Shown: positions 799 to 19,236 of the stretch, piece after piece | Position numbering within the stretch: position 1 is the first letter of the stretch | Layout of the letters: the number at the start of each line of letters is the position of its first letter | Source: Undibacterium piscinae | GTDB lineage: Bacteria > Pseudomonadota > Gammaproteobacteria > Burkholderiales > Burkholderiaceae_D | Direction: 5' to 3' | Length of the DNA stretch: 64,000 bases | Assembly (NCBI GenBank): GCA_003970805.2 | Contig: CP051152.1 | Coordinates: forward strand, 1,674,001-1,738,000 | Position numbers and translations under genes: made by a program | The notes under the pieces: model-generated | What the model was told of the DNA's origin: nothing | Database searches by the model: none | What the model saw: the letters and a program-made list of their open reading frames with translations, nothing else

Positions 799-851
799 GC
801 ACGAAAGTATACCTCGCCCGACCGAAAGTTAACAGGGGGAGGCATCCCTTT

Positions 852-1199
852 TTATACGCGCCAATTCGATTGTGGCGGCGCGTTAAGTCGGGGCCAGTCA
901 ACGCCCGTGGTGAGCCATTGCCATTCTTCGTTCGACAAGACACACGCCGCATCATGGCTCTGCGGCCAGACGAAGCGACCTTTGTGCAAGCGTCGCATAC
1001 ATAACCAAACACCGGTGCCATCCCAGATCAATAGCTTGATGCGGGTGCTATTCTTGTTACGAAATGCATAGGCACTGCCATCGCAAGGTGGCTTACCCAA
1101 ACTTTCTTGTACATGCAGGGAAAGTCCGTCAACACCGCTGCGCATATCGATCGGTTCGACAGCGAGATACACCTGTGCCGGAGTCAGTGGCAGGCTCAT
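852..1199 (-). CDS. tnpB: IS66 family accessory protein TnpB (Orf2), 115 aa
   Basis: IS66 Orf2-like protein of usual length, with the typical VEPIDMRSGVDGL and IKLLIWDGTGVWL segments. Its start overlaps the end of tnpA by four bases (ATGA), which suggests translational coupling. TnpB is needed for full transposition of IS66 elements, but its biochemical role is not settled. The protein is identical to that of the second copy at 16465-16812. Confidence 0.93.
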   Translation of the reverse strand: MSLPLTPAQVYLAVEPIDMRSGVDGLSLHVQESLGKPPCDGSAYAFRNKNSTRIKLLIWDGTGVWLCMRRLHKGRFVWPQSHDAACVLSNEEWQWLTTGVDWPRLNAPPQSNWRV

Positions 1200-1597
1200 G
1201 GTAGTTGCCGCAGCAATTGCGCCAACACGGGTAAGTCAACATGGTTAGAAATAGTCACCTGCCAACCGGCCGGGCTGCACAAGACAATCTCGGGAAGTGA
1301 TGCCCTGATCGACACCGGCACCAACTTGCAAGGCTTCATGGCTGGCCGCGGCGATGTCGATGCGATTGTCGTGAGGGAGGTGTGCTTAGCTTGAGAAACT
1401 ACTGGCGATTTTACAGCGGGTGTGGCAAGTGTGACACTCTGATCAATAACGATGGAAGCGAGGCGTTTGCGCCAGGTATAAAACGTTGAATAGCCGATGG
1501 CTTCACGTCGACAATACGCGCTCAGTGATAAGCCGCTCTCAGCCCAGTGCTGCTGATGCTTAGTCCAAAACGCCACTTTGAGAGGATTGAAATTCAT
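1196..1597 (-). CDS. tnpA: IS66 family accessory protein TnpA, 133 aa
   Basis: First gene of the IS66 element. The N-terminal half is a helix-turn-helix of the IS3/IS66 Orf1 type (SGLSLSAYCRREAIGYSTFY), expected to bind the element ends. The C-terminal half is the usual poorly conserved tail. The start lies 78 bases inside the IS terminus at 1675. The predicted protein is identical to that of the second copy at 16067-16468. Confidence 0.92.
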   Translation of the reverse strand: MNFNPLKVAFWTKHQQHWAESGLSLSAYCRREAIGYSTFYTWRKRLASIVIDQSVTLATPAVKSPVVSQAKHTSLTTIASTSPRPAMKPCKLVPVSIRASLPEIVLCSPAGWQVTISNHVDLPVLAQLLRQLP

Positions 1598-1675
1598 GCT
1601 AACTCCAGATCATTGAAAGAGTCGAGTGTCACTTATATCGTTATCGATTTCCAGATGGTTGCGTTGGACGCTTAC

Positions 1676-2076: not shown

Positions 2077-5000
2077 TCAAAATCCAGCGGGTTTTGTTTT
2101 GACCGGCTTGAAGCTCTTGTGTTCTCGCCTAAATGCAACCAGATCAAGGTCAGCGACATTGATAGAAATCTGATCTACTCCATGCGCATGTGACACTAAT
2201 CGGTCAAAATGTTCTTTGTAAGGTGCTTGAATTGTAGATCCACCAAACTCCCCCTTGTTGACTACAACCACATGTTGAAACATATGATAATTAAGAGCAG
2301 CAGCCATGGTATCGAACGTGCTTACATCTTTATTGTGTGCGCAAACCACAAACAGATCTGTCTTCTTCTTTAAATCAACCGCTAAATTTAAATCGGTCGC
2401 GTCATAACAGATCGCACCGCTGATGCGTATTGGTCCTTCTTCAGCACCAATTACTTCGATTATGTGTTGACATGGTCTATAGCCTGAAATCCCAAGTAAA
2501 ACCTCATCCTTTGTCATGTTTGCTTTACCTTGATCCCTGATAATCCATTGTCGTCCAGAATCGCGATAATCAGGAATAAACCACCTTGCGACGTTTACCA
2601 GCTTTCCGTTATGGTCAAAAAATACCATACCTGCTAACACTATAGACTTAGTCTTATCAGCCAACCGTTTAATGATATCTTGATCATCGGGATGTACCGC
2701 GACTTCGGGAAAAACGATTAAGTCAGCACTAACTTTTGACAAATCGTTATCAGCTTCCAGTTTAGCAGTGAGCGTTTTATATGTTAGCTGGCAGATTCTT
2801 GCAATGTGCGCTCTGTTTTCTGCTCTTGCTTTTGGCAAGTTAAGCTCTCGATCACTAAGAGAAAAATCTTTACTTCGTGGAAGCAATTGCTGAACAGTGA
2901 CCAGCCGAAATGAAGGTCGTTTTGTCAGCGTGCTTATTGATGTAACTAACGTCGGCATTCTGGAAGCCTTGCAGTAAAGCTCATCGAGCAATCGCAGCCT
3001 TTTACTTAATACCTTCCTCAGCGATTCGAGGCCATCAATCCCTAAAATTTCTTCGCTCTTGAGATATGTTGACTCTCGCCCAGGCCACTGAAGACACTTC
3101 ATCAACAATTCAGAGAACCAAGTTGACACCGTTGCATAGTTCCCCACCAGCACTTCAGAAGAATGCATCATACCCATTCGTCGCTTATACCAGCCAGTTC
3201 TCAAGCCCTTATAGCTGATCACCGTTCCCAGCTTCCAGCGACTGCCAGTGAAATCACTACCCCCAACAACCGCCGCACGAAGAATTGAACCAATCCAATA
3301 AATTATTGTGTGTTCATTATTACTGGCATCAATCCAAGGTGGAGCTGAAAACCGAGGATCATTCGTCGTCGATTTTGAGGTTGTAGTGCAATCAATTGAG
3401 GTCACATCTGGAAGCCAAAGCTCTTCCCAATCTGCATGGTGCCCAACCTGAGCAACTTGTATATCACGTGGGGACAAAGGGAGCAGTGCTGAATTTTTTT
3501 CAGCAAATGAAATTAAACCCAAGGCAAGCTTGACCAGGGCAACTTCGTGTTCGAATCCATTTTTATTTGAAGCGATAACTTTGGAAAGTTTTTGTTTTTT
3601 CGATTTCAAGTCACTTGATGCAACTGGCGCAGCCCAATCTAATTGCTTTATCAGTTCCTTATTCGCACTATCTTGCCCGAGCCGTTTCCACACACTCAAC
3701 CAAAATTCACCTCCACGTTTAGCAATTTCCTCTAGCGAGCTAAGCTTCAAGTCCGGAGTCAAAGGGGAGATATTTTCAATCAACAATAATGCAAATGCAT
3801 CTGGTCGCCCAGTAATCTGCGACGCCACTTCAAATAGTGCTAATCGCTGAATCTGAAATTCCGGTGGCCGTCCAGCCAAAATAGCATGAAGACTGTGTTG
3901 AATAGTCTTAGTCGCATTGTCGACCAGTACTGGTTTTTTCAATGTAGCCAACAACAGTAAAGCTTGCCTCTCAATAAATCTTGGTACGTTCGGACTGCCA
4001 ACTGAACGCTGTGCATACATAGCTGCAATATCAAGGAGGTCTTCTGGCGCGGCCGATTTCGGATAATCAACACGTTGAAAAAAACCATTAAAATCGACAC
4101 AGCATCTAAAAATATCTGCCAATAAATAATCCATCATCGCGGCAGTCGACCGATCAGCCCCTCCTCCGCCTATACTACTTCTTTTAAAAATAGCATCTAA
4201 CACAGGTTCGATAATGATTGGCGATGGAAAAATCTCAATTGCCTTTCGCAATACAAGGCCGAGAGAAGGGTCTTGCATCCATGCTTTCACGAGTTTCTTG
4301 GCCAGTAATTCGCTCTCGTTGTCAGCTAGATTTCCCGCTTGTCCATCAAGCTTATCAATTACCGTCAGTTTGCGTTTGTTCCGCATGACTGATTCCAATC
4401 TATTTGCGGCAAATCGTTTAAGCGTATCAAGCCTAATATCATGATCAAATTTGACCAATCGAAAGAGGCCTTTATCACCCTTCACAGAAGTCGTTTCAGG
4501 TACATCATCTGGTTGAGACGTTAACAATCCTTCGAGTACAGCAGTTGCACTTTCAAGAATATCTCGATCTGCGGGGCCACTCAATTCATTTTGAAGGAGC
4601 ATAATGCGGCCAGATAAGCTACCACTATTGTCCAAGTCAGAAAGGGACGTGAGCTTTGTCTTCTTAATATTAAGCTTTAGTGTAGTCCCAGCATGCAATT
4701 TCAACTGGTTGCCGACCCACGTATTGATCGCTTTAGCTATCTTATCAATATCAATGTTTCCTGCACTAATCACCAAGCGGATATCATCAACATATCGACA
4801 GTAGTCATGCAAAATTACATCCGCCATATTTGGCACACTTTCACCGATGTATTTTGCGACACTTCTATCAAACGGAATCATATATGCATTGGCGAAAAAT
4901 CCAGATGCAACTAATCCTTGAGGCAATCCAGATCCAAGCTCTAGGCCTATCTTTTTTGCAGCGTCTACCGCTTCAACATCCCAGCGCCAATCAGTAATCT

Positions 5001-5766
5001 TCTTCGCTCTCTTCCAAAACTCTTTACAAACATCAGCATCGCCATATTCAACAGCTATATTCTGAAGTCGCTTTAATAAGGTTGGGCGATCAATGTAATC
5101 ATAAAATTTTGACAAATCCAGATTAACAATGAAAACATGATCGGTATCGCTCAGACTGTTCGCGACGAGTCTACCAATTTCAATTGGCCTCTTGAGAAAG
5201 TTTTGATAGTCAGTAAAAAATTTCCTATACGTCTCGCCATTTCCCCAGCGGAACCAAGCCCCTTGCTCGGTCCAATCACATAGCAGTCTATTACCATAGC
5301 TATATACCCCTTGATTTTGGGCTAAGCTAGCGTTGAGAATACTACAATCCCCTTGTGCACTTTCTACCGCGTCAGCAAGGCACATCATCAGCGCTGTTGC
5401 CCACGTCTGATCGCGAACTGTCATATGTGCTAGTGGTCGGACAGGAGGCTTACTTTCTCTGATTTTTGGTTCTTCAAGCGGAACCCATCCCTTTTTCGAA
5501 TCCAATCCCCACGGTTCGCTTTTGGCTGCGGGGACAAGTTCTAGATCTCTTAACTCTATGTCGTTCTTCGTCAGCGCATTCGCCCATTTTTCGGCATTGC
5601 TTTCTAAACCCAGCGCAGATATGTCAAGGGCAAGCGTATCGGCATACCAGTTGTGTGCACGCATATAACCATGGGTCTTTTTCCAAGCTTGGCTAATAAC
5701 TACTTCATCAGTTAAAAGATCAATCTCAGGTTTAAGTTTGCGATACTTTTCTGCAACGAGTTTCAT
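2077..5766 (-). CDS. Reverse transcriptase-nitrilase fusion, DRT type 1-like antiphage protein (1229 aa)
   Basis: A very large protein joining an N-terminal reverse transcriptase to a C-terminal nitrilase-fold amidohydrolase, the architecture described for defence-associated RT class UG1/DRT1. RT motif A (VNLDLSKFYDYID, Asp217), motif B (GLPQGLVASGFFANAYM, about 280-296) and the catalytic YVDD (325-328) are intact. About 640 residues follow without a recognised motif. The nitrilase domain spans roughly 980-1200, with likely triad Glu1021 (FPEVAV), Lys1081 (QGKANM) and Cys1120 (AICYDATD). The gene is the last of the minus-strand defence cluster, 202 bases after ygjP, so it may use its own promoter. 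Family members protect against some phages; the nitrilase substrate and any DNA product are unknown. The family call rests on motifs and architecture, not on a database search. Confidence 0.88.
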   Translation of the reverse strand: MKLVAEKYRKLKPEIDLLTDEVVISQAWKKTHGYMRAHNWYADTLALDISALGLESNAEKWANALTKNDIELRDLELVPAAKSEPWGLDSKKGWVPLEEPKIRESKPPVRPLAHMTVRDQTWATALMMCLADAVESAQGDCSILNASLAQNQGVYSYGNRLLCDWTEQGAWFRWGNGETYRKFFTDYQNFLKRPIEIGRLVANSLSDTDHVFIVNLDLSKFYDYIDRPTLLKRLQNIAVEYGDADVCKEFWKRAKKITDWRWDVEAVDAAKKIGLELGSGLPQGLVASGFFANAYMIPFDRSVAKYIGESVPNMADVILHDYCRYVDDIRLVISAGNIDIDKIAKAINTWVGNQLKLHAGTTLKLNIKKTKLTSLSDLDNSGSLSGRIMLLQNELSGPADRDILESATAVLEGLLTSQPDDVPETTSVKGDKGLFRLVKFDHDIRLDTLKRFAANRLESVMRNKRKLTVIDKLDGQAGNLADNESELLAKKLVKAWMQDPSLGLVLRKAIEIFPSPIIIEPVLDAIFKRSSIGGGGADRSTAAMMDYLLADIFRCCVDFNGFFQRVDYPKSAAPEDLLDIAAMYAQRSVGSPNVPRFIERQALLLLATLKKPVLVDNATKTIQHSLHAILAGRPPEFQIQRLALFEVASQITGRPDAFALLLIENISPLTPDLKLSSLEEIAKRGGEFWLSVWKRLGQDSANKELIKQLDWAAPVASSDLKSKKQKLSKVIASNKNGFEHEVALVKLALGLISFAEKNSALLPLSPRDIQVAQVGHHADWEELWLPDVTSIDCTTTSKSTTNDPRFSAPPWIDASNNEHTIIYWIGSILRAAVVGGSDFTGSRWKLGTVISYKGLRTGWYKRRMGMMHSSEVLVGNYATVSTWFSELLMKCLQWPGRESTYLKSEEILGIDGLESLRKVLSKRLRLLDELYCKASRMPTLVTSISTLTKRPSFRLVTVQQLLPRSKDFSLSDRELNLPKARAENRAHIARICQLTYKTLTAKLEADNDLSKVSADLIVFPEVAVHPDDQDIIKRLADKTKSIVLAGMVFFDHNGKLVNVARWFIPDYRDSGRQWIIRDQGKANMTKDEVLLGISGYRPCQHIIEVIGAEEGPIRISGAICYDATDLNLAVDLKKKTDLFVVCAHNKDVSTFDTMAAALNYHMFQHVVVVNKGEFGGSTIQAPYKEHFDRLVSHAHGVDQISINVADLDLVAFRREHKSFKPVKTKPAGF

Positions 5767-5817
5767 AAATTTTTCCGATAACGACTTGCACGAACTTGTA
5801 AAGATACGCTCAGCATT

Positions 5818-5865
5818 GAGCCAAAATATAATCTAAATATTGAAATATCACGTGTACTTTGGCTC
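5818..5865 (-). repeat. Inverted repeat upstream of the RT-nitrilase gene
   Basis: Perfect 8-base arms GAGCCAAA (5818-5825) and TTTGGCTC (5858-5865) enclose a 32-base AT-rich centre, 52-99 bases upstream of the RT-nitrilase start. It could be an operator, or a structured leader if transcription starts above it. Function is inferred only from position. Confidence 0.4.
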
Positions 5866-5968
5866 TCCAAACTTGATATCTTTCTCGCAATTCACAACTC
5901 GCGTCAATTATTCAATCACTAAAAAATAGTCTCAGGAGGATGAAAATGCCGATTCCTACGACCATATC

Positions 5969-6685
5969 TTAATAATCCCAGTCCTCATGACGCACAGGCA
6001 AACGATTTAACTCCTCCCGTAGGTGTCGCCACTTAGGCATAAAAAGCTCCATAAGTGCGGTAAATCGTGCGTTATGAGTAGGCTCGATTAAGTGTGCCAA
6101 TTCATGCACGACGATATATTCAAGGCATTCAGGAGGTTTTTTTGCAAGGTCAGTATTTAATCGTATGTTTTTCAGACTTGGGTTACAACTGCCCCATTTA
6201 GTCTTCATACGCTGCACGAAAATGCGGCTTGCGCTCACACCCAAAAGCGGCTCCCATTTTGCAATCAAATCAGGCATCGCGATCTTAATTTGCTCTCGAT
6301 ACCAAGAGTCTAAAATTTCCTGTCTACGTCCGTCATCAGTGCCAGGCCTCAGTTGCAAGATAAGCTTGCCATGCGTCAGCTCAACGTTTGGAGTAGCGTC
6401 TTTTTCAACGATTTGTAAAAGGTAGCGCTTGCCCCACAAGTAATGACTTTCGCGATCCAAATATTCACGCGGAGTCTCTCGTTCCTGTGCCAATATTTTG
6501 CGCTGTTGGCTTTTGATCCATGCGAGCTTAGAGATGGCGAATACACGAATCGTATCTAATTCCATATATAGCGGCGCTGATATACGCACCTTGCCGGAAG
6601 GCGGATAGACACTAAGATGAACGTTCTTAATGTTCTTCTTTACTACATCAATACAAAGGCCGCCAAGATCAAGCTGCACAGTCAT
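5969..6685 (-). CDS. YgjP-like metallopeptidase (DUF45/WLM type), 238 aa
   Basis: Zinc metallopeptidase-like protein with the HELAH motif at residues 194-198 followed by EPTHN (His204), and the family signature MKTKWGSCNP before it. Length and layout fit the YgjP/DUF45 family, formerly called a predicted metal-dependent hydrolase. It has no signal peptide, so it is cytoplasmic. Its ATG overlaps the hsdR stop codon by one base (TAATG), so it is probably translated together with hsdR. Homologues are often found next to type I restriction genes, but the role there is not established; processing of a restriction subunit or of the neighbouring zeta-like protein is only a guess. Confidence 0.85.
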   Translation of the reverse strand: MTVQLDLGGLCIDVVKKNIKNVHLSVYPPSGKVRISAPLYMELDTIRVFAISKLAWIKSQQRKILAQERETPREYLDRESHYLWGKRYLLQIVEKDATPNVELTHGKLILQLRPGTDDGRRQEILDSWYREQIKIAMPDLIAKWEPLLGVSASRIFVQRMKTKWGSCNPSLKNIRLNTDLAKKPPECLEYIVVHELAHLIEPTHNARFTALMELFMPKWRHLREELNRLPVRHEDWDY

Positions 6686-9600
6686 TAATACTCTCGCTGT
6701 GCAAAAATGATCAAGAAAATGCGCTCAACTTCAGTGATATCTTTAAGAATTTCGTAAAGTGCCTGCTTGATTACCAATTCCTTTGGTACTACACCGCGCC
6801 ATCCGTCAGGCTTTACCGTTTTAACGACTTCGTCGATTTTTAACGCCAACAAAGTCAATCTCTGCACTTCATCCCCGTACGGTACGGCATCGTCTGCCAC
6901 CATATGGGCAGTTGCCATGTTTAATGGTTTCTTAAGATTATTAAAAAGAGCTCGTTTAGCAGGCGTATCCAAAAGCGCAGGCGTGTCATTAGCTACACCT
7001 GCTTGTACTTTCGCTACAAGGTCGGCGACACGCTGCAAATACACTTCGTATTCAATGGCCTTATTCTTCCGCAAAATAATAATTTCATCGAGCAAGGCAG
7101 ACATCGTTTCAAAAAAAGCGGGATCAGTTAAACGCTCTTTCAAGATCTTGCTACGCACGTTATTCTCAATCGTCTCTGCAATCGACGCACGGCTACCCTT
7201 TAAACTGCCTAATTTCTTGGCAATTGCATCGGCTATACCTGTTTTAACAATCAGATCTAACAAGCCAATATTGTCGAAAGGGGAAATTTTTCGAGGCTCA
7301 TCTGCTTCAATATAAGTATCGATAAGATGTCTCATATCGGCCTCATAGGTTTTCAAATCGAGGCTCTCACCACTGGCATTTCGAATCACTTCGCGCAAGT
7401 CCAAGTAATGCTTCTGTAGCTTTTTGATGCTATCGAATTCAAGCGCGCTGTAACCAGCCGAATCAAATTCATCAGCAATATTGGCATAGGAACGCACTAA
7501 TGCCACCACCGCTTTGTAGAGCGCTACTCTGCGAGGTTCACGTTCTATTACGTCCGCTGGAATTTCGGTATTGCCGCAAAAATAGTGAATGTGCGCCAAT
7601 TCACGATCTGGCTGTACCGTCGGTGGCTCTACTGGCTCACAAAGTAACGCGAGTGCCTCAAGCGCAGCATCCAAGCGCTCCTTCCCTTTAGTCAATCGGT
7701 CTTGAAGCATGACTTCAGAATCTGTACCGCCAGCGCTAAGGTCTAGTTCTGATGTATAAACAGCTAAGGCTTTCTCTACTTTCTTGAACAAATCCTTGTA
7801 ATCAACAACATAACCAAAATCTTTATCATCACCATCTAACCTATTGGTGCGGCATATCGCCTGAAATAAGCCATGATCTTGCATCGACTTGTCTATGTAG
7901 AGATAAGAGCATGGCGGCGCATCAAAACCCGTCAACAGCTTGTCCACGACAATAAGCAATTTCATGTTTGCGGGTTCCTTGATGAAGCGCTTTTTAGCGC
8001 TATCCTCATAAGTTTCCGTTTTACTTAAACCGGGCTTAGCGTCAATATCCTTCAGCAATTCGGTATATACACTGTAGAGGAATTGCTTATCCGTTTCGGT
8101 GTTTGCGCCAGTCTCCTCCAAGGTGACATTACCCGCCATTGGGTTATAAGAAGTGATGACAGCACAGCGCCCCTTAAATACCGTTTTTTGGAATAATGTG
8201 AAATATTTGCTAGCTTCATAAATACTTGAAGCAACAAGAATCGCGTTCCCGCGCTCACTCGAAAGACGTGGTTTTACACTAAAATCGAAGATAATATCGG
8301 CGACGACTCTATCCATACGCGATTTTGAACTAAGCACACGCTGCATCGTGCCCCACTGATTCTTCAGTTCATTTTTTTGCCAATTATTCAGATTCTTGGT
8401 TTTCGCCTCAAACCACTGATCTATCTTGTCTTCGGAACCAAGACGCTGATCTATATCACGCGCCTCGTACACCAGATCGAGCACCACACCATCTTCGACA
8501 GCCTCACTAAATTTATAGGTGTGGATATAACCGCCAAATACTTCATTACTGGTGGCCTTATCTGCTTTTAACAATGGTGTTCCAGTAAAACCCATGAAGA
8601 CAGCGTTCGGCATCAAGGCCTTCATCACGCGATTTAACCTACCATTTTGAGTGCGATGGCATTCATCTACAAACACAAAGACATCGCCCACAGTTTTACT
8701 AGAAGAACTCTGCAATTCTTTAATGAAGCTCTCAAATTCGACTTCATTTTTCCCCTTGGACTCGAGACCAAATTTGAAAATAAGGGAACAAAGCAAACGT
8801 GGCGTGGGCTGCCCAAGTTGGCTCATTAAATCGCGACCGTTATTCGTGCGATAAATGGTTTCACCTGCATCGGCAAAAACACGTTCAATCTGCTTATCTA
8901 ATTCATCGCGATCAGTGACGATGACGACACGCGCATTTGGATTGTTTTCTAAAATCCATTTGGCAAGCAGTACCATCAAAATACTCTTTCCAGCGCCCTG
9001 CGTATGCCAAATGATGCCGCCGTTACGCTGCTTTGCATGCTCCTGCGCCGCCTTTATACCAAAATATTGGTGTACTCTGGGCAGCTTCTTTATACCACCA
9101 TCAAAGAGAACGAAGTCATGCATCAGTTCAATAATTCTGTGCTTGTCACAGAGCTTAAGTAAATACTTATCTAACTTAAATCGGCTATTGTCAGCTTCGT
9201 CTTCTTTCCAGTTTAAAAAGTATTTTTCTTCGGTTTTGATGGTTCCGTAGCGTAGCCCTTCTGAATCATTGCCGGCGAAAACGAATTGCACCGTGCTAAA
9301 AAACCACTCATTGAATTCCGGCAGCTGATTGGACAGGTTTTGACGTATGCCATCGCCAATGCTTACGCGGCTATTCTTTAGCTCTAAAACACCAATCGCA
9401 ATACCATTCACGTATAGAACAATGTCAGGGCGCCGCTCATTACCACCTCGTAGCGTTACCTCCTCCGCAATCGCAAAATCGTTCTTATCCGCCTCATGCC
9501 AATTAATTAGATGTACCGTTTCATTTGTCTTTCCGGCCTCGATCTTTACCGGCACACCGTAGCGCAGCAAGCTATAAACAGCCTGATTATTATTGTATAG

Positions 9601-9828
9601 AGAACGATTGTGATTATCGGCCTCCAATCGAAGCTTGAATATTGCGGCGCTAATCTGTGCAGATGTGTATCCATTCTTACTCAAATATTTTTCTAGTAAA
9701 CCCGCATCTATATTGCTATTGCCAACTCGGTCTGTCCAATCACCGAGGTAGGTATAAGCTAGTTCGTTGCGAAACAGGGCGACAACACGGTTTTGTGTCG
9801 CACGTTCGGGTTTACCTATATCTGTCAT
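6685..9828 (-). CDS. hsdR: Type I restriction enzyme endonuclease/translocase subunit HsdR (1047 aa)
   Basis: Motor and nuclease subunit of a type I restriction-modification enzyme. The N-terminal PD-(D/E)xK nuclease shows Asp135 (RRPDIVLYV) and ELK at 149-151. The helicase core begins with Walker A TQGAGKS (276-282) and a DECH box (388-391), followed by a FTGTPL motif and a C-terminal helicase lobe containing CRTNR. The C-terminal part would bind HsdM/HsdS. Length is normal and the reading frame intact. The start overlaps the stop of the zeta-like gene by four bases (ATGA), so expression of nuclease and kinase is coupled. The enzyme is expected to cut unmethylated foreign DNA away from its recognition site. 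Confidence 0.96.
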   Translation of the reverse strand: MTDIGKPERATQNRVVALFRNELAYTYLGDWTDRVGNSNIDAGLLEKYLSKNGYTSAQISAAIFKLRLEADNHNRSLYNNNQAVYSLLRYGVPVKIEAGKTNETVHLINWHEADKNDFAIAEEVTLRGGNERRPDIVLYVNGIAIGVLELKNSRVSIGDGIRQNLSNQLPEFNEWFFSTVQFVFAGNDSEGLRYGTIKTEEKYFLNWKEDEADNSRFKLDKYLLKLCDKHRIIELMHDFVLFDGGIKKLPRVHQYFGIKAAQEHAKQRNGGIIWHTQGAGKSILMVLLAKWILENNPNARVVIVTDRDELDKQIERVFADAGETIYRTNNGRDLMSQLGQPTPRLLCSLIFKFGLESKGKNEVEFESFIKELQSSSSKTVGDVFVFVDECHRTQNGRLNRVMKALMPNAVFMGFTGTPLLKADKATSNEVFGGYIHTYKFSEAVEDGVVLDLVYEARDIDQRLGSEDKIDQWFEAKTKNLNNWQKNELKNQWGTMQRVLSSKSRMDRVVADIIFDFSVKPRLSSERGNAILVASSIYEASKYFTLFQKTVFKGRCAVITSYNPMAGNVTLEETGANTETDKQFLYSVYTELLKDIDAKPGLSKTETYEDSAKKRFIKEPANMKLLIVVDKLLTGFDAPPCSYLYIDKSMQDHGLFQAICRTNRLDGDDKDFGYVVDYKDLFKKVEKALAVYTSELDLSAGGTDSEVMLQDRLTKGKERLDAALEALALLCEPVEPPTVQPDRELAHIHYFCGNTEIPADVIEREPRRVALYKAVVALVRSYANIADEFDSAGYSALEFDSIKKLQKHYLDLREVIRNASGESLDLKTYEADMRHLIDTYIEADEPRKISPFDNIGLLDLIVKTGIADAIAKKLGSLKGSRASIAETIENNVRSKILKERLTDPAFFETMSALLDEIIILRKNKAIEYEVYLQRVADLVAKVQAGVANDTPALLDTPAKRALFNNLKKPLNMATAHMVADDAVPYGDEVQRLTLLALKIDEVVKTVKPDGWRGVVPKELVIKQALYEILKDITEVERIFLIIFAQREY

Positions 9829-10577
9829 GCGTTCAATTCCCCATCTTCAAATTTATCCCACAAAGCAGTCTTAAACCAAATCGGCATTTGATCGGTTTTA
9901 ATTTCTATTTCATTGCCGTTAGTTACTTCCGCAATCCAGACTTTTTCATGACCTGAGTTATCAAAAATATAGGCGCGATCAGCAAATGCAACCGCGTCAT
10001 ATAACAAATCAAGTGAGCGCGTATAGCGGCTGATAATTTTATCTTCTGGCACTGGGTGCCCACCCGTTTCCACTCTGTGAAGAACGCGTGAAATATTAAT
10101 TTCAGGGTCTTCGGTAGCGACGTAATAAAGGTAAGTACGAAAGCCCGCCTGCTGTGCTTTTTCTAAGAAGTCCACTTTATCAGGAGAGGACATCACTGTC
10201 TCAAACGTGAACGCCATCTTGGCCTTCAGTAATTTATGCCGAATATAGTCTGCCAGTACCGATGCCCAATAGGAGTTAACATCAAGCGCTTCAAACAGTA
10301 TTACGCCATCCAGCACTTTCACGCTATCAATTTGATTCAGCAGGCCTGCACTGGCCAACAAGGTAGAGGCGCGTAAAAACTGTTGTAACTCTTCATTACT
10401 AGCATCGATTTCAAAGGGCGATAATTCCAAGCAGTGGTGCGTGCGGATTTCCTTTTCGATTTCATCTGCGTTGATATACACGCCCAACCATTCAGCTGGC
10501 AACATGTCTTTAATCGTGCTCTTACCAGAACCATTCGGCCCCGCAAATACGCGCAAACGCGGAAGTTGCGCACTCAT
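9825..10577 (-). CDS. Zeta-toxin-like P-loop kinase (250 aa)
   Basis: P-loop protein with Walker A GPNGSGKST (13-21), then YINADEIEKEIR, FTFETVMSS (about 123-131) and RVETGGHPVPEDKI with a following SRY, the pattern seen in zeta-toxin/UDP-GlcNAc-kinase-like proteins. Classical zeta toxins phosphorylate UDP-N-acetylglucosamine and block cell-wall synthesis; whether this one does is unknown. It sits inside the restriction operon, overlapping both the 82-aa gene upstream and hsdR downstream by four bases. The arrangement resembles other type I loci that carry an embedded suicide effector, such as prrC next to hsd genes. A plain nucleotide kinase without toxic activity is the main alternative. 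Confidence 0.8.
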   Translation of the reverse strand: MSAQLPRLRVFAGPNGSGKSTIKDMLPAEWLGVYINADEIEKEIRTHHCLELSPFEIDASNEELQQFLRASTLLASAGLLNQIDSVKVLDGVILFEALDVNSYWASVLADYIRHKLLKAKMAFTFETVMSSPDKVDFLEKAQQAGFRTYLYYVATEDPEINISRVLHRVETGGHPVPEDKIISRYTRSLDLLYDAVAFADRAYIFDNSGHEKVWIAEVTNGNEIEIKTDQMPIWFKTALWDKFEDGELNA

Positions 10578-10822
10578 CGAGCACGCACCCGTACACGCTT
10601 ACTGCCAGGAACGACAGCCACGGGCACACGCAAAGTGCGAATCAATCGTTGGCTTCCGTCCGCTGAAGTTTCGACCAAGCGCCCATTCACGGCTTCCTTC
10701 ACCTTACCGCTGGTTGTTAATGCTTGATAATAGGCGCGTCTAACCGCATTACCGGCGAGTTCAGGAATTCGTGCCTCCATTGCCTGCATGGATTGCTCGT
10801 TCATTTTTATGCTTCGCTTCAT
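10574..10822 (-). CDS. Small basic protein upstream of zeta-like kinase, possible antitoxin (82 aa)
   Basis: I do not recognise a named family. An ATG at 10822 preceded by GAGGGAG at good spacing is preferred over the in-frame ATG 27 bases upstream, which lacks a ribosome site. The N-terminal half looks helical (EQSMQAMEARIPELAGNAV) and the C-terminus is strongly basic (SKRVRVRAR). The stop overlaps the start of the zeta-like kinase by four bases, the usual layout of a toxin-antitoxin or chaperone-client pair, and the gene starts 65 bases after hsdS. Antitoxin function is inferred from size, position and coupling only. Confidence 0.65.
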   Translation of the reverse strand: MKRSIKMNEQSMQAMEARIPELAGNAVRRAYYQALTTSGKVKEAVNGRLVETSADGSQRLIRTLRVPVAVVPGSKRVRVRAR

Positions 10823-10887
10823 GATTGCTCCCTCATCGTGTATCTTCAATACATCATTATTACAATAGCATTTTTTCTTGCGTCACA

Positions 10888-11955
10888 TCAGATTTGATCT
10901 ATTAATCGAATTCTGCCAGTTAGCAAAACTTGCATCATTCCTTGCTTGATCAAACGTGCTTTCTTGAGTTTGGTTTCTAACGAGACGATTTCAACATCGA
11001 TATCATGAAGGATGTTGGCAATTGCTGTTTGCTCATCGTACGGTGGAAAATTACACTCAAGTATCAACAACTTCGAAATAGAAAGTCCTGGCTGTGCTGA
11101 TGACTCTGAATATTGATTCAAATTCATCCGTTTCAAGACTTGCGATAGCCAACGAATGTCAGTACCTTTTTTGGGCGTTACGACGATCGCATGCTCTGAC
11201 GCAAAAAATTGTCCATCTACAATTGAGATATTGCCGCATAAAGCACCTTGCCGTCCGATGAGCGCGTAACTTCCATCGTGAGTGAAACGCTTTGTAAAAC
11301 CACGCAGTCCGTTTCCACCATAACATGGGAAGCGAGAATGCTCATCAATATCAATACTGGTTATTCCTTCTCCGCTTTTCATCGTGCAAATGGCACTCAA
11401 TCGTCTAGTTTTCCAATCTGCATTAAAACCAGGCAATCGTCGTCGCCCCGTGAATAGCTCCTGAACCACACCTTGCTTGATCTGACTTTTCTTTGCCAGA
11501 TATTGCTCAATCGACTCAATTAGAGTATCGGCATCGCTTAATGCATCTGCAATAGTAAGTTGCTCAACCTTCGATGGAGGCATCGAAATAACAATTTCAT
11601 GTAAATCATTGCGATTAACGCCAGGGACTCCACTCTTACCACTATAAGTATGAAAATTAATAGTTCTAAGCATATAGGAAACGAACAAAGGATCGTTTCC
11701 ATGAAAATCACGTACATATAGTGTCGTGTTTAACGGCCAGAAGTCTTCACTAACATAAAAGACCTGTCCAATAGTTCCATATCGACCAGTCACTACACCT
11801 GGCGCTCTTACCTTAAACTCATTGTGTGTTACTTCAATCCCCGAAGATGTAACAATTGGCACGTTGCCCATTTTTCGAAGACGCTGTGGGAGATCGAAAC
11901 CACGCTGAAGAGTAGCGACGTTCCCCAAAAAATCTTTCTTCCAAGGTTCACTCAC
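10888..11955 (-). CDS. hsdS: Type I restriction enzyme specificity subunit HsdS (355 aa)
   Basis: DNA-recognition subunit with two target recognition domains. The first spans about 1-130 with the conserved helix KVEQLTIADALSDADTLIES after it. The second begins around LPGFNADWKTRRL and ends with a matching helix, DEQTAIANILHDIDVEIVSL. Each half ends with KKSQIKQG/KKARLIKQG followed by ELFTGR or VLLTGR, the repeated spacer typical of HsdS. At 355 residues it is slightly shorter than many HsdS proteins but has both halves. The start overlaps the hsdM stop by four bases. It sets the sequence specificity of both methylation and restriction. Confidence 0.95.
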   Translation of the reverse strand: MSEPWKKDFLGNVATLQRGFDLPQRLRKMGNVPIVTSSGIEVTHNEFKVRAPGVVTGRYGTIGQVFYVSEDFWPLNTTLYVRDFHGNDPLFVSYMLRTINFHTYSGKSGVPGVNRNDLHEIVISMPPSKVEQLTIADALSDADTLIESIEQYLAKKSQIKQGVVQELFTGRRRLPGFNADWKTRRLSAICTMKSGEGITSIDIDEHSRFPCYGGNGLRGFTKRFTHDGSYALIGRQGALCGNISIVDGQFFASEHAIVVTPKKGTDIRWLSQVLKRMNLNQYSESSAQPGLSISKLLILECNFPPYDEQTAIANILHDIDVEIVSLETKLKKARLIKQGMMQVLLTGRIRLIDQI

Positions 11956-14672
11956 AATACAAACCCCATTTTTCTAAGATGTATCGCCACCTTAAATTCT
12001 GAAGAAATTACGTTCTTTGTGATTGTTGATTGTGTAGTTTCATAACGCTCAACCAATTCTTTCACTCGATGGGTCAATGCGTGACTGATACTATTCATTT
12101 CACCATGAATTGCTGCATCCAGAACAGCTATCCATTTATCTTCCACGGTTAAAGTCTTAATGTCATCAACCGTTAGCTCTGGGTATTTTTCAAACGCAAG
12201 TATGTCGAGCGCATCCTCCGCAACTCTCACTGCACTTTTCAGGGTACTCACTTCGTCCACAAGATCAAGATAGCGACTCAGCACACGCAATTCATTTAGG
12301 TCGTCATTTTCTGGTTCTAACGGAAGCCTAGCTAATGCATCTTTTTCCGCTTCATCAAACAAATTCGACACAATTTCGTCGAAAGACTTTACTGTTGCAA
12401 CAGCCGTTTTATATAACTCAAGAAATACACGTTCTTCGTCGGCTATGTTTGTTTTTAAGCGCGCATTTATCACTGCTACGGTGACTTTTCCCTTGGCATT
12501 GGCAATATTATGCATGCGAGTATCATCAATCATATCTGAGACACGTTGCCACGCAGCTTTTCGCTTTTTGACCGCTGCGGAATATTTGGCATGACTTGTT
12601 GGGCTGGCCAACTGCCAAACTAGAAGAATCGCTTCACGCAATGCATCGAGAGCATCATTTCTATTTTCGACCTGACCAAGTATGCCCTCTTCACCACTAT
12701 TCTCTTCCTGCAGCTCAGTCAATAGCGTGTTCGCATTTTCCAGATCGGCGACAAGTTGATTGATACAGTCTTGCTCTTTCGAAAAATAACGTGCCACGAT
12801 CAATTGCTTCGGAACGAGATCACATGTCCATCCTTTGTCCAATTGTTTATCTGGCTTGCCGTCTTTACCTTTCTTAATTTCAATGACGCGATAGGTTTCG
12901 GCCTTCCATCCGTCTGCTGCAATTAAGTAGCAATCGTCTTGCATCGTCGCTTCCCAATAATTCATCAAATGCTGATAAACATCATAAGCATCAATCAACG
13001 CACGTCCTTGATAATGCGTTAATAGCCCTTCGGCGACTTCAGCAATCAATTCTTTAGGGTGAAAGCCTACTTGTAGTGCTTTAAGAGTAGTGATGACGGG
13101 CTTACGCCATTGATCAAAATACGTATTCATGTCGACTATAAAAGTGGAGAACTGTGGGTGCGCATAAATACTTGTTTTGATATCAGGCTTCGCAATCGCG
13201 AGATCAAAATATCCGGGGCGATTGGATTTAAACAATGCGTCTTTCAATTCAGGACATACCGCCCAATAGTTTTGCAATGCATCTATATCGGCGACTGGAA
13301 TACCACCGTTAAGATGGCCGTCAATGTCTTGCAAATCTTCTGCCATGGACGAATCAACGTACCGAGGTAGATGGAGATTAAACTCATTTTTTTCGATTTC
13401 CTCATACGACACCATGCGGCCAAACTTAGGGTCACGACTATCTTGACGCATAAAAACATCGACTATTTTGTGCACATCTTGCTCACGCAAACGATTTTTA
13501 GGACCATCCTTCATAAAACCACGGCTTGCATCAACCATAAAAATGCCTTTGCGTGATTGCGCGTCCTCCTTGTCAATCACGATGATACAAGCTGGTATAC
13601 CCGTTCCAAAAAACAGATTGGCAGGCAGACCGATAACCCCCTTAATGTAACCGCGTCGTATCAAATTACGCCGAATGTTTGCCTCTGCGTTCCCTCTAAA
13701 TAATATCCCGTGCGGCAAAATACACGCACCTTTCCCGGTATTCTTAAGCGAACGGATGATGTGTAGTAAGTAGGCGAAATCGCCTTGCTTTGCAGGAGGC
13801 ACACCGAAAGTATCGAAACGATCAAATGGATCATTTAATGGCGATAAACCCGTACTCCAGCGCTTATCTGAAAAAGGTGGATTGGCGACGACGTAATCAA
13901 AGGTTTTAAGCGATTCGCCCTCCTTGAATTTGGGGTCAGCCAATGTATTACCTTGCGCGATCAATGCAGTAGGGTTGTTATGCAAAATCATGTTCATGTG
14001 CGCTAGACCGCTTGTCGCCTCATCTTTTTCTTGGCCGTAGAGAGTAACGGGTGTGGCTGCTTCGTCGCCTACTTTCAACAACAACGAGCCTGAACCACAG
14101 GTCGGATCATAAACCGTCGTTTCACTCGTGGTACGTGCACCACCAATACCGATAATCTTTGCCATGATGCGGCTAACTTCAGCGGGTGTGTAAAACTGCC
14201 CCTTACTTTTGCCGCTTTCACTAGCAAAATGGCGCATGAGGTATTCATAAGCATCGCCGAGAATATCATCACCGTCTGCGCGATTCTTACTAAAATCTAA
14301 TTCAGGCTTTTCAAAGATCGCAATCAAATTGGTGAGGCGATCGACCATTTCTTTACCTGTACCAAGAAGTGCAGTTTCATTGAAATCTGCTTTGATACGA
14401 AGCCTGTTTGCTTTGGCCAACGGATCAATAATTTTCTTGTTAATCTGATCGCCAATGTCACTCGTACCCTTGAGCGCAACCATATCTTTAAAACTGGAAC
14501 CTTTTGGAATAATGATGGATGCATAAGGAATATCGGCAAATTTATCACTGACGTACTTAATAAAAAGCATGACCAAAACATAGTCTTTGTATTGACTGGC
14601 ATCCATGCCGCCGCGAAGTTCGTCGCATGATGCCCAGAGCGATGAATAGAGTTCTGATTTTTTAATTGCCAT
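11952..14672 (-). CDS. hsdM: Type I restriction enzyme methyltransferase subunit HsdM (906 aa, long form)
   Basis: N6-adenine methyltransferase of the type I enzyme. The N-terminal HsdM_N region is followed by the AdoMet motif DPTCGSGS (189-196) and the catalytic NPPF (264-267). After the catalytic domain it continues for about 400 residues, rich in predicted helix and ending with KELVERYETTQSTI. That makes it much longer than the classical 500-residue HsdM, as in a known long subfamily. With HsdS it would modify the host recognition sites. It is the first gene of the hsdM-hsdS-82aa-kinase-hsdR-ygjP transcription unit. Confidence 0.95.
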   Translation of the reverse strand: MAIKKSELYSSLWASCDELRGGMDASQYKDYVLVMLFIKYVSDKFADIPYASIIIPKGSSFKDMVALKGTSDIGDQINKKIIDPLAKANRLRIKADFNETALLGTGKEMVDRLTNLIAIFEKPELDFSKNRADGDDILGDAYEYLMRHFASESGKSKGQFYTPAEVSRIMAKIIGIGGARTTSETTVYDPTCGSGSLLLKVGDEAATPVTLYGQEKDEATSGLAHMNMILHNNPTALIAQGNTLADPKFKEGESLKTFDYVVANPPFSDKRWSTGLSPLNDPFDRFDTFGVPPAKQGDFAYLLHIIRSLKNTGKGACILPHGILFRGNAEANIRRNLIRRGYIKGVIGLPANLFFGTGIPACIIVIDKEDAQSRKGIFMVDASRGFMKDGPKNRLREQDVHKIVDVFMRQDSRDPKFGRMVSYEEIEKNEFNLHLPRYVDSSMAEDLQDIDGHLNGGIPVADIDALQNYWAVCPELKDALFKSNRPGYFDLAIAKPDIKTSIYAHPQFSTFIVDMNTYFDQWRKPVITTLKALQVGFHPKELIAEVAEGLLTHYQGRALIDAYDVYQHLMNYWEATMQDDCYLIAADGWKAETYRVIEIKKGKDGKPDKQLDKGWTCDLVPKQLIVARYFSKEQDCINQLVADLENANTLLTELQEENSGEEGILGQVENRNDALDALREAILLVWQLASPTSHAKYSAAVKKRKAAWQRVSDMIDDTRMHNIANAKGKVTVAVINARLKTNIADEERVFLELYKTAVATVKSFDEIVSNLFDEAEKDALARLPLEPENDDLNELRVLSRYLDLVDEVSTLKSAVRVAEDALDILAFEKYPELTVDDIKTLTVEDKWIAVLDAAIHGEMNSISHALTHRVKELVERYETTQSTITKNVISSEFKVAIHLRKMGFVL

Positions 14673-14801
14673 TTAATTCGATCTTCATTGTTATGTCTAT
14701 CTCGCGGCTAAAACCACATCCGCAATAATTCAATATTTGAGCTACGACTTCTTATCAATACATCGTCATAAGAAAACGCCACATTTAGGAAAGTAATAAA
14801 A

Positions 14802-14999
14802 TCAATCCGCTATCGCAATTTGATTCTCATCTGAGCCACCGGATTTAACCCAGGCATCGACATCAGCTCGCTGAAATTTCCAGAAACGCCCAACCCGATG
14901 AGCCGGCATATTTTTCTTGGCGATCCACGCATAGATGGAGTCCTTACTGACGCCAAGGTAGTCAGCAATCTCTTCCACCGATAACCAGCGGTCTAACAT
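14802..14999 (-). CDS. Excisionase-family helix-turn-helix protein (about 65 aa)
   Basis: Small DNA-binding protein of the MerR/excisionase HTH_17 type: RWLSVEEIADYLGVSKDSIY is the helix-turn-helix and HRVGRFWKFQRADVDAW the adjoining wing. I place the start at 14999, where GGAAGA lies seven bases upstream; in-frame ATGs at 15014 and 15053 would add 5 or 18 residues. It precedes hsdM by 129 bases on the same strand. It could regulate the restriction operon, or be a recombination directionality factor left from the mobile island whose integrase remnant is at 18741-19236. Confidence 0.82.
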   Translation of the reverse strand: MLDRWLSVEEIADYLGVSKDSIYAWIAKKNMPAHRVGRFWKFQRADVDAWVKSGGSDENQIAIAD

Positions 15000-15249
15000 A
15001 ACGGGATCTTCCATATCAAAATAAACCTTCCAAAGGCGCAAAAAACTATACATGATTCAAGCGTAGTATAGCCGTTTAGACCCGATTAAGCATGAATAAG
15101 AGAGATTTAGATGGCCATGTCGCTATTTATTTAAGTTACCAATAGATAATATCGTAATTTACTGCACCGTCTATACGACAGGCTTAATGTCGCCGTGATT
15201 TGTATTTTCCAAAAATGCAAGAAATAGCACATCACCGCGACACTTAGCT

Positions 15250-15750
15250 TTAACTCTTCGCTGATATCCTATTCATTGGCGTGACGCCGATAAACCATGC
15301 AGGGATAAGCGTCTGAAAATCCGTACGGACATATTGAGCTGGAGTGATCCAATATGCAGGATCAATCATGTACTCAATAGGCTGCTTAGCATTGGTTTTG
15401 TCCCTAACGAATATGGCGTGTCTACCGATTTCCGTTTCTGGATCATAGTCCACCATCACTATCGCGACATTGTGAATATCGACGAGACCAGTTTCGACCT
15501 CTTTGTAGATGGTTGAAACAAAACCGTAGTGAGCGAGAATCTTGTTGATCATTTCCTCCGTCACATAATATGGGCCGTTGGCGGGATGGCCGAATTTATC
15601 GATGGCCACCTGCATGACATCATCTAAAGATTTGCTGACGATCATTGCGATACAGGCGAAGGCACAGTCGTGATCAACAGCCTGCTGTACCCGCTTGAAG
15701 GCGGGTTGAATTGCCTGCGTTTGATTAACTGCTGATGGAATAGTAGCCAT
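15250..15750 (-). CDS. C39-like papain-fold cysteine peptidase (166 aa)
   Basis: The start at 15750 is supported by AAGGAG seven bases upstream; a GTG 54 bases further up is less likely. Residues AVDHDCAFACIAMIV (Cys29), GRHAIFV (His111) and MIDPAYW (Asp130) match the Cys-His-Asp spacing of peptidase C39-type papain folds. There is no signal peptide, ATP-binding cassette or membrane segment, so it is a free-standing soluble domain. It lies between the IS66 copy and the defence cluster on the same strand. Function is unknown: processing of a small peptide, de-conjugation, or an effector role are all possible. Confidence 0.62.
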   Translation of the reverse strand: MATIPSAVNQTQAIQPAFKRVQQAVDHDCAFACIAMIVSKSLDDVMQVAIDKFGHPANGPYYVTEEMINKILAHYGFVSTIYKEVETGLVDIHNVAIVMVDYDPETEIGRHAIFVRDKTNAKQPIEYMIDPAYWITPAQYVRTDFQTLIPAWFIGVTPMNRISAKS

Positions 15751-15980
15751 AGCTTTGCTCCTTAAGAATAGGATGGCATTTAAAATGCGCGCAGCAAAAC
15801 CCACTTGAAAAGTGATGAGTTTAGAAAAAGTAGGGAATGGTCGAAATCTTATTGAACCCCTTGATTACATCAGGACGAAATCTGAAGAATCTGATTCAAG
15901 CGGACGCTGCTGCGCGGGGATGTCAAACTCTAGCGATTAAACAAGCGAATAGCCGATTCAATATTAGTTTTAACAAGCAT

Positions 15981-15988
15981 ATTTTACT
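15981..15988. repeat. Target-site duplication, left side of complete IS66
   Basis: The octamer ATTTTACT directly precedes the IS terminus GTAAGCG at 15989 and is repeated exactly after the other terminus at 18476-18483. Eight bases is the usual duplication length for IS66 elements, so this copy inserted here by transposition. Confidence 0.93.
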
Positions 15989-16066
15989 GTAAGCGTCCAA
16001 CGCAACCATCTGGAAATCGATAACGATATAAGTGACACTCGACTCTTTCAATGATCTGGAGTTAGC

Positions 16067-16468
16067 ATGAATTTCAATCCTCTCAAAGTGGCGTTTTGGA
16101 CTAAGCATCAGCAGCACTGGGCTGAGAGCGGCTTATCACTGAGCGCGTATTGTCGACGTGAAGCCATCGGCTATTCAACGTTTTATACCTGGCGCAAACG
16201 CCTCGCTTCCATCGTTATTGATCAGAGTGTCACACTTGCCACACCCGCTGTAAAATCGCCAGTAGTTTCTCAAGCTAAGCACACCTCCCTCACGACAATC
16301 GCATCGACATCGCCGCGGCCAGCCATGAAGCCTTGCAAGTTGGTGCCGGTGTCGATCAGGGCATCACTTCCCGAGATTGTCTTGTGCAGCCCGGCCGGTT
16401 GGCAGGTGACTATTTCTAACCATGTTGACTTACCCGTGTTGGCGCAATTGCTGCGGCAACTACCATGA
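16067..16468 (+). CDS. tnpA: IS66 family accessory protein TnpA, 133 aa
   Basis: Helix-turn-helix protein at the 5' end of the complete IS66 element; the segment SLSAYCRREAIGYSTFY is the DNA-binding motif. Its stop overlaps the tnpB start by four bases. The protein is identical to that of the partial left copy. Confidence 0.93.
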   Translation: MNFNPLKVAFWTKHQQHWAESGLSLSAYCRREAIGYSTFYTWRKRLASIVIDQSVTLATPAVKSPVVSQAKHTSLTTIASTSPRPAMKPCKLVPVSIRASLPEIVLCSPAGWQVTISNHVDLPVLAQLLRQLP

Positions 16469-16812
16469 GCCTGCCACTGACTCCGGCACAGGTGTATCTC
16501 GCTGTCGAACCGATCGATATGCGCAGCGGTGTTGACGGACTTTCCCTGCATGTACAAGAAAGTTTGGGTAAGCCACCTTGCGATGGCAGTGCCTATGCAT
16601 TTCGTAACAAGAATAGCACCCGCATCAAGCTATTGATCTGGGATGGCACCGGTGTTTGGTTATGTATGCGACGCTTGCACAAAGGTCGCTTCGTCTGGCC
16701 GCAGAGCCATGATGCGGCGTGTGTCTTGTCGAACGAAGAATGGCAATGGCTCACCACGGGCGTTGACTGGCCCCGACTTAACGCGCCGCCACAATCGAAT
16801 TGGCGCGTATAA
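16465..16812 (+). CDS. tnpB: IS66 family accessory protein TnpB (Orf2), 115 aa
   Basis: Complete IS66 Orf2 protein with VEPIDMRSGVDGL and KLLIWDGTGVWL. Coupled to tnpA by an ATGA overlap and followed by tnpC after a 53-base gap. The protein is identical to that of the left copy. Confidence 0.94.
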   Translation: MSLPLTPAQVYLAVEPIDMRSGVDGLSLHVQESLGKPPCDGSAYAFRNKNSTRIKLLIWDGTGVWLCMRRLHKGRFVWPQSHDAACVLSNEEWQWLTTGVDWPRLNAPPQSNWRV

Positions 16813-16865
16813 AAAGGGATGCCTCCCCCTGTTAACTTTCGGTCGGGCGAGGTATACTTTCGTGC

Positions 16866-18431: not shown

Positions 18432-18475
18432 TGCGCTTTAGGAATAAATGCTAGACGGATCTGTTGGACGCTTAC

Positions 18476-18483
18476 ATTTTACT
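18476..18483. repeat. Target-site duplication, right side of complete IS66
   Basis: ATTTTACT directly follows the IS right terminus (CGCTTAC) and matches the octamer at 15981-15988. Confidence 0.93.
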
Positions 18484-18740: not shown

Positions 18741-19236
18741 TCAACTCAATACCAAACTATTTTCAATTTGCGTCAAATACTCAACCCACAACGTTAAAGC
18801 GTCGCGTCTTTCTTCGAAATAGGTATGGACGTCATATATGCCCTCCACCCCTGCTAATTTATGATTCAGGCACATTTCCGTAATATCGCGCGGCACACCT
18901 AATCTACGCATATGGCTCTTTGCAGTTGACCTGAGGTCATGTGGAGTAAAGCGCCGCACAGCAGGATTATGCTCCGTGTACCAACTCAATAGCAGCGCCT
19001 ATCGTATTTGGATTGATTGGGGCATCACCTCCAAATTTAACTTTCCTACTCTGCGCTCTCGACGGCAAAATAAATACAGAATCAAAACCTAATAATTTCA
19101 ACTCTTGCAGCCACCCAATAACAGGTAAAGTAAGTGGGATTTGAATCCCAGGACCAGTCTTGCTCGTCGGCACACTCCACACCTGATTTTCAAAATCGAA
19201 CTGATCCCATTTTGCATTTCTAAGTTCATCTGAGCG
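18741..19236 (-). pseudogene. Tyrosine recombinase (phage-type integrase) remnant, 5'-truncated and frameshifted
   Basis: Two overlapping minus-strand reading frames together give the C-terminal catalytic half of a P4-like integrase. The upstream piece starts without a start codon at LVRSDELRNAKWDQFDF (first catalytic Arg) and runs to NPNTIGAAIELV. The downstream piece, in another frame, contains FTPHDLRSTAKSHM (second Arg), CLNHKL and the terminal YDVHTYFEERRDAL with the Tyr nucleophile. The frame changes near 18980. The sequence is cut off at about 19236, directly beside the stop of the MaoC-Pta gene, and the N-terminal half is missing. It is most simply the relic of the enzyme that inserted this island. 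Confidence 0.88.

Follow-up and report, generated by a model that had tools for sequence, protein, structure and literature searches.

Why should the gene for an antiphage reverse transcriptase (RT) stand at the tail of a type I restriction operon, and do the two act as one machine? The question is raised by a stretch of 64,000 nucleotides from Undibacterium piscinae (contig CP051152.1, positions 1,674,001 to 1,738,000; the source genome is a single contig of 4,186,344 bases), hereafter called the window, in which drt1, coding for an RT joined to a nitrilase, follows hsdM, hsdS and hsdR. The answer that we consider quite probable is that a transferred defence island holds two antiphage systems of known kinds as neighbours, which probably work independently and were joined by the shuffling of defence genes through shared slots.

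The cluster consists of eight minus-strand genes running from 15053 to 2077; hsdM, hsdS, hsdR, ygjP and drt1 have open, full-length reading frames and were assigned by Pfam, PADLOC and NCBIfam models. At its head stands an 83-residue DNA-binding helix–turn–helix (HTH) protein of the HTH_17 excisionase/MAD1-like type (14802–15053; PF12728, E 5.3e-17). It is followed by hsdM, the N6-adenine methyltransferase subunit (11952–14672; 906 residues; PF02384, E 1.9e-97; PDLC03027, 1194 bits), hsdS, the specificity subunit (10888–11955; 355 residues; PF01420, E 1.4e-30 in two stretches; PDLC03116, 262.6 bits), a 91-residue open reading frame (ORF) with a TTG start (10574–10849), and, between hsdS and hsdR, a P-loop kinase of the zeta-toxin family (9825–10577; 250 residues; PF06414, E 9.5e-12), of which the small ORF is the putative antitoxin partner. 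The row is completed by hsdR, the restriction-translocation subunit (6685–9828; 1047 residues; PDLC03044, 1365 bits; TIGR00348, 499.7 bits), ygjP, a YgjP/SprT-like zinc metallopeptidase (5969–6685; 238 residues; PF01863, E 1e-59), and drt1 itself (2077–5766; 1229 residues). The motifs whose patterns we take from general knowledge to mark these families are present: NPPF at residue 264 of HsdM, PD..ELK, GAGKS and DECH in HsdR, HELAH at residue 194 of YgjP and GPNGSGKS in the zeta kinase. An earlier sequence-only reading of this DNA had rightly placed hsdM, hsdS, hsdR, ygjP and the RT gene on one strand, and had missed the kinase, the 91-residue ORF and the leading HTH gene. It had also let the operon end in drt1, a view that the spacing does not favour. 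From hsdM through ygjP the genes overlap (by 4 bp at hsdM–hsdS, 91-residue ORF–zeta and zeta–hsdR, by 1 bp at hsdR–ygjP) or lie at most 38 bp apart (hsdS to the 91-residue ORF), whereas drt1 lies 202 bp beyond this otherwise tightly packed operon; 129 bp separate the HTH gene from hsdM.

Judged by model scores and by alignment with a solved homologue, the RT is a full-length DRT1 (UG1), a class 3 defence-associated reverse transcriptase. The PADLOC model Drt1a (PDLC03745) matches residues 2–1229 at 1417.7 bits (E 0), and the sequence of the solved DRT1, 9YFD, aligns over the full length at 998 bits; its nitrilase part also aligns when taken separately. At E≤0.01, Pfam finds RVT_1 in this protein and no nitrilase model; the nitrilase is assigned because PADLOC RTasNitrilase (297.7 bits, residues 728–1229) and 9YFD match. 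Kinship with group II intron or retron RTs, named beforehand as the alternatives to DRT1, was not found: the respective model scores are 35.9 bits against an NCBIfam cut-off of 300 and 41.2 bits against 235. The NCBIfam models Drt3a and Drt2 likewise leave the protein far under their cut-offs.

The residues on which a working DRT1 would depend are also conserved. The YVDD motif occupies residues 325–328, with D327 and D328 aligned to D324 and D325 of 9YFD; C1120 of the nitrilase Glu-Lys-Cys set (E1021, K1081, C1120) aligns with C1116, K1223 and A1227 of the C-terminal lid with K1219 and A1223, and S396 with the priming serine S402. The last pairing crosses a two-residue gap, S396 being preceded by two fewer residues than S402 and reading SGP. 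In the structural report, changes at D324/D325, S402, C1116, K1219 or A1223 abolished or strongly reduced defence (PMC13275509). Of the catalytic residues, the text consulted names the cysteine alone (PMC13275509); the putative tetrad E1021, K1081, E1088 and C1120 is assigned here by conservation. Among the 120 proteins listed of 1901 matching ones (8000 candidates scored; the query counts among the 120), the YVDD aspartates, S396, E1021, C1120, K1223 and A1227 are invariant and K1081 is kept in 119, a lenient test, since the list is made up of the nearest relatives. A broader set of 25 proteins keeps the priming serine in 24; the exception is a Photobacterium protein (locus L023) with two extra residues near this serine, as in 9YFD. 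The intact YVDD and the Glu-Lys-Cys triad proposed from the bare sequence have thus been borne out by alignment and conservation. What sets the window apart from the solved system, besides the gap before S396, is that its drt1 adjoins a type I operon and that no small membrane protein like drt1b was found to follow it.

The operon, too, resembles a known system. The RRDM island of enteropathogenic E. coli, which is active against phages, has the order RptR-hsdM-hsdS-DarTG2-hsdR-M48 (PMC12255303). The window repeats this order with an HTH gene, hsdM, hsdS, a toxin–antitoxin-like pair, hsdR and a metallopeptidase gene, and IS66 lies nearby in both; the likeness is one of gene order, the RRDM proteins themselves not having been aligned to those of the window. 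In place of DarTG2, the window has the zeta-type kinase (PF06414) and its 91-residue partner, its HTH protein is of the excisionase/MAD1 type, and DRT1 follows the operon. The HTH protein reaches the MAD1 model NF047737 only at the border (80.5 bits, cut-off 80). A MADS system was considered and rejected, the MAD2 methyltransferase model scoring 39 bits against a cut-off of 720 and the MAD3 ATPase model 16.7 against 420.

The pair between hsdS and hsdR looks like a captured toxin–antitoxin module. The zeta kinase has matches in 540 plasmid records, and its relatives lie outside hsd operons at all four plasmid loci compared. This reading of the pair is suggested because sequence related to the 91-residue ORF stands directly 5' of the stand-alone zeta gene at three of these four loci (46, 35 and 33% identity), on plasmids of Azotobacter, Pseudomonas paraeruginosa and Comamonas. 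The hsdS–hsdR gap is called a potential recombination hotspot in the RRDM account (PMC12255303). A plasmid survey with HsdR as the query gave 647 records with a match, 43 of them covering at least 80% of the query; 30 were listed and 10 opened, a non-random choice as some were picked for a listed metalloprotease or an inserted gene. Five of these ten loci hold an insert between hsdS and hsdR (an unknown ORF; a GIY-YIG gene; two DUF262 genes; an unknown ORF with SLATT; a Fic gene). All ten have a metalloprotease gene 3' of hsdR, homologous to YgjP at the four checked (46–58%) and assigned by annotation at the others. Behind the metalloprotease the genes vary and are often defensive (e.g., a KwaB-like protein, McrC, SIR2, a RelE toxin), with no RT gene annotated there at any of the ten. 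In another genome (G227, locus L092, 3505–7322), hsdR and ygjP are paired as in the window (49 and 50% identity, respectively), with a viperin gene at a distance of about 2.4 kb, and a gap of about 2.2 kb separates the hsdS and hsdR matches.

That the block has been transferred is indicated by its composition and its distribution. The GC content of drt1 (43.4%) and of hsdM, hsdS and hsdR (42.1–44.0%) marks the block as foreign against flanking genes of 54.6–56.6%. In G015, a genome of another species of the genus, the same island is found: 40,700 bp align to 40,708 bp with no mismatch and two gaps (8 bp in total), while the matching chromosome pieces outside are 74–89% alike. The mobile island of the sequence-only reading is therefore larger than noted, at about 40.7 kb, its left end lying 21.5 kb outside the window and its right end at window position 19240. 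It is inserted between rng and the maoC-pta gene in both genomes; in relatives, these two genes lie 2.3, 4.0 and 5.6 kb apart (three of five fetched pieces showing both). Within the genus, DRT1 matches occur in three of 60 relatives, namely the window's own genome, G015 and one with a weak match. AbiE, viperin, an ankyrin-type candidate and a TmtA-type gene also belong to the island. By this comparison, drt1 and the hsd genes travel together, within a much larger gene set.

If the two formed a dedicated unit, their order should recur. Among 399 genomes of the window's order, DRT1 is present at full length in four (the window's own included) and gives any match in 11; a class-level search at E≤1e-20 found 1 of 369 genomes, the window's own. 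Seven plasmid records match, four of them covering at least 80% of the query, and two other DRT1 queries gave the same seven. Further matches lie on four viral contigs (one a weak part), additional viral scans adding no new contig, and two distant ones on contigs of other genomes; phage records gave no match at E≤1e-5. From these, 14 loci including the window were compared. Set aside were the G015 copy (same island), a second Sphingopyxis plasmid with the match at the same place as the first, the fragments L021 (equal to L009), L063 and one of Pseudomonas syringae, and the weak C-terminal-only matches L005 and L010–L015; at one retained locus, L068, the match is to part of an RT and spans about 45% of the query. 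The fetched DNA spans 0.4 to 14 kb per side, several loci ending at contig ends; in unannotated loci some of the ORFs were scanned, and the type I panel comprises a few families, so that others could be missed. In this DNA, no YgjP match at E≤1e-6 occurs around the 13 other DRT1 loci. The order hsd-ygjP-DRT1 was accordingly not seen again in the loci sampled, neither around these 13 nor at the 10 plasmid ygjP loci, and within this sample the proposed dedicated unit finds no support, non-recurrence having been named in advance as evidence against it.

The sharing of one place is seen elsewhere, and the direct evidence comes from Pseudoalteromonas. On three megaplasmids of this genus, viperin and DUF4145 genes are common to the entrance of one slot, which holds DRT1 and a small membrane protein in P. 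shioyasakiensis SDCH90 (L022, 13747–17678), hsdR-hsdM-hsdS in Pseudoalteromonas sp. HL-AS2 (L099, 12484–18362) and a GmrSD-like DUF262 pair in P. shioyasakiensis A316 (L101, 12467–16565). The sequences flanking the slot in SDCH90 and A316 are 97.4% alike on the entrance side (6,022 bp) and 95.4% alike on the far side (2,696 bp); remnants of the hsdR 5' end are retained in both strains, before DRT1 and before the DUF262 pair, respectively. The HL-AS2 entrance is 84.2% identical to that of SDCH90 along 2,808 bp that end where hsdR begins, whereas the far side of the HL-AS2 slot is unmatched. DRT1 and type I genes can therefore occupy the same place. As in the window, DRT1 and type I restriction genes are tied to one location; there, however, the genes replace each other, whereas in the window both are intact and stand side by side.

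Type I genes or their remnants are found near other DRT1 genes as well. At L060, an EcoAI-like hsdR-hsdM-hsdS set starts about 45 bp 3' of DRT1; at L022, the broken hsdR 5' piece ends 80 bp 5' of DRT1. At L020, from the window's order, a 109-residue ORF (9906–10235) ending 3 bp before DRT1 fuses an HsdR N-terminal piece with an HsdS piece and is likely to be the deletion scar of a type I operon. Within 10 kb, L018 and L025 (the latter by annotation only) bring the count to 6 of 14. The linked type I genes vary in family and in side. As a control, the island's viperin gene was used as the query, giving 10 plasmid and four genome loci, with the island's own gene and four of 14 plasmid records (H77, H80, H82 and H85) left out. 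Here, type I genes or remnants lie within 2 kb at 3 of 14 loci (Fisher p 1.0 against DRT1) and within 10 kb at 4 of 14 (p 0.69). All three near viperin matches (L022, L099 and L101) come from the single Pseudoalteromonas hotspot, L022 being shared by the two sets, so the control is weak: an excess at DRT1 is neither demonstrated nor ruled out by it.

Several observations weigh against two independent systems joined by slot shuffling. With the hotspot counted once, the control gives 1 of 12 loci within 2 kb (Fisher p 0.33) and 2 of 12 within 10 kb (p 0.22), and the count for DRT1 within 2 kb stands at 4 of 14 (the window, L020, L022 and L060); a modest type I excess at DRT1 is thus possible, the samples being too small to decide. 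The sample contains no genomes of Shewanella, Vibrio, Aeromonas and other groups to which many close homologues are assigned. Within the window, drt1 is not set apart from the hsd genes by GC content, and read-through transcription into drt1 is possible. Because the spacer from ygjP to drt1 (5767–5968; 202 bp, GC 36.1%) showed no recombination scar, an origin of this particular junction in a slot is something that we infer. In the available parts of the sources consulted, including PMC8934634 and PMC11206119, no account of an hsd-DRT1 link was found, and a UG/Abi review may discuss such links. DRT genes and type I systems are listed in the same Aeromonas strains, adjacency not being stated in the accessible text (PMC11206119).

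Among the alternatives, the one that survives best, though still rather unlikely, is that the two systems share regulation and nothing else: transcripts started at the hsd promoter, under control of the HTH protein, or at a promoter inside ygjP would run on into drt1, and both systems would rise together upon infection without their proteins interacting. The spacer is compatible with this, as it holds just a weak terminator-like match (5821–5808, minus strand), and the RRDM operon is under an upstream repressor and its hsdM transcript increases on infection (PMC12255303). On the other hand, the AT-rich spacer could hold drt1's own promoter; it contains a weak promoter-like match (5935–5907, minus strand), in a region where such matches show no excess (19 found, 29.9 expected). 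The window HTH protein, compared with the PDB, gave no entry named RptR at E≤1 (the presence of RptR in that copy being unchecked). Only one RptR-like site (TATCTA) lies upstream of the window operon, against the two or more TAGCTA-type sites expected of an RRDM-like operon and at least two RptR-type sites in 33 of 38 restriction-linked rptR promoters (PMC12255303).

A true functional coupling is very improbable, and beyond nearness there is little to support it. Here, the type I enzyme and DRT1 would provide layered immunity: translocation and cutting by HsdR, followed by exonuclease or helicase processing, would yield single-stranded phage DNA or displaced DRT1 DNA adducts that trigger the nitrilase, and DRT1 would kill the cell once restriction fails. 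The same strand and tail position of drt1, together with the type I genes within 2 kb at other loci, agree with this proposal, as does the requirement of published DRT1 for Dda, the single-stranded DNA helicase of the phage, in its activity against T4 (PMC13275509). Against it, the linked type I genes differ (5' in the window, EcoAI-like and 3' in L060, broken 5' remnants in L020 and L022), and the order in the window is not repeated in the loci seen. E. coli MG1655 carries a type I enzyme of its own, EcoKI. The protection of this strain by cloned DRT1 without added hsd genes, reported in PMC13275509, also speaks against coupling, and is no proof of independence because of that enzyme. A shade less credible again is that restriction, the zeta toxin and DRT1 work one after another as the layers of a single cassette. 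In that case HsdR, by processing the phage DNA, would bring about a single-stranded DNA or helicase state that wakes DRT1, and type I genes and DRT1 would meet repeatedly in islands because the pairing is selected.

The IS66-family elements around the block raise a last possibility. The island carries four identical copies, and an 8-bp target duplication of its own flanks every one of them. On the left, the inner part of one copy occupies window positions 1–1675 (minus strand), the copy itself reaching 811 bp left of the window, with the duplication ACTCTGAT on both sides; the right copy (15989–18475, plus strand, 2487 bp) is inverted with respect to it and flanked by ATTTTACT at 15981–15988 and 18476–18483. 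The notion of a composite transposon, in which two inverted copies moved the 14.3 kb from hsd to drt1 together, can practically be dismissed, for although identical copies bracket the block in opposite orientation, a duplication confined to its outer ends was not seen, each of the four copies has its own as in separate insertions, and what is shared with G015 is a block of 40.7 kb that includes all four. Near the right end of the island, an 82-residue ORF (18741–18989, minus strand) is a possible tyrosine-recombinase remnant (PF00589, 21 bits against a cut-off of 27.1, E 3.2e-4). In addition, one of the IS66 copies apparently interrupts a tyrosine-recombinase gene on the island (L026, 14784–18262; pieces 14784–15104 and 17576–18262), and because of this the island may no longer move by means of that enzyme. 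Also inside the island, 5' of the HTH gene, lies a 184-residue ORF (15250–15804) without a Pfam (E≤0.01) or PADLOC match; across the window, a tRNA is the sole Rfam match at gathering scores.

Returning to two systems joined by slot shuffling, the activities that we infer for the proteins would combine as follows. Type I enzymes cut unmodified DNA on entry; in the window, HsdM and HsdS would methylate host sites and HsdR would cut DNA left unmodified, while the addiction-like zeta pair would probably kill or arrest cells upon loss or blocking of the operon. DRT1 is the later-acting system, thought to work in mid-infection (PMC13275509). If it resembles its solved homologue, it would use S396 to prime DNA synthesis without a template and form dormant filaments of tetramers, the nitrilase being kept shut by the C-terminus; when a phage replicates, the nitrilase would then drive abortive infection. 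DRT1 would adjoin the operon through the replacing or stacking of defence genes in the same recombination slots, and not as part of one machine.

The surroundings of DRT1 elsewhere are diverse, with Qat/Hhe, viperin, a CRISPR-transposon gene set and DpdE/DrmMI-like genes among its neighbours. On a Photobacterium plasmid (L023, 1–16147), DRT1 follows a CRISPR-associated transposon set (TniQ, Csy2, Csy3 and Cas6f), possibly as its cargo. At L019 (4029–19831), it lies 230 bp behind an operon with a mixed set of DpdE/DrmMI/DruE/LmuB-like genes, and at L062 (8075–12498) it may be phage cargo, as it stands with a drt1b-like gene on a contig classed as viral. Five of the 14 loci encode, immediately 3' of DRT1, mutually homologous small proteins that have a single hydrophobic stretch and are probably drt1b (L022, 17675–18127; L023, 15725–16147; L024, 15831–16337; L061, 5530–5964; L062, 12034–12498). 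In the window, the ORF at 1875–2159 behind drt1 was considered for the role of drt1b and rejected: it overlaps the end of drt1, and its best 19-residue hydropathy is 1.43 against 2.01–2.48 in the five drt1b-like proteins.

The DRT1 and the RRDM-like operon of the window are further examples of known system types, and what they add concerns how such systems come together. A DRT1 and an RRDM-like operon, both apparently intact, on an island free of substitutions between two species indicate that whole defence sets move at once. The zeta pair adds a further example of the hsdS–hsdR gap as a landing place for defence modules. Finally, a DUF262 pair, DRT1 and type I genes found in one slot, with breaks in the hsdR 5' end, provide a testable reason for the adjacency of reverse transcriptases and restriction genes.

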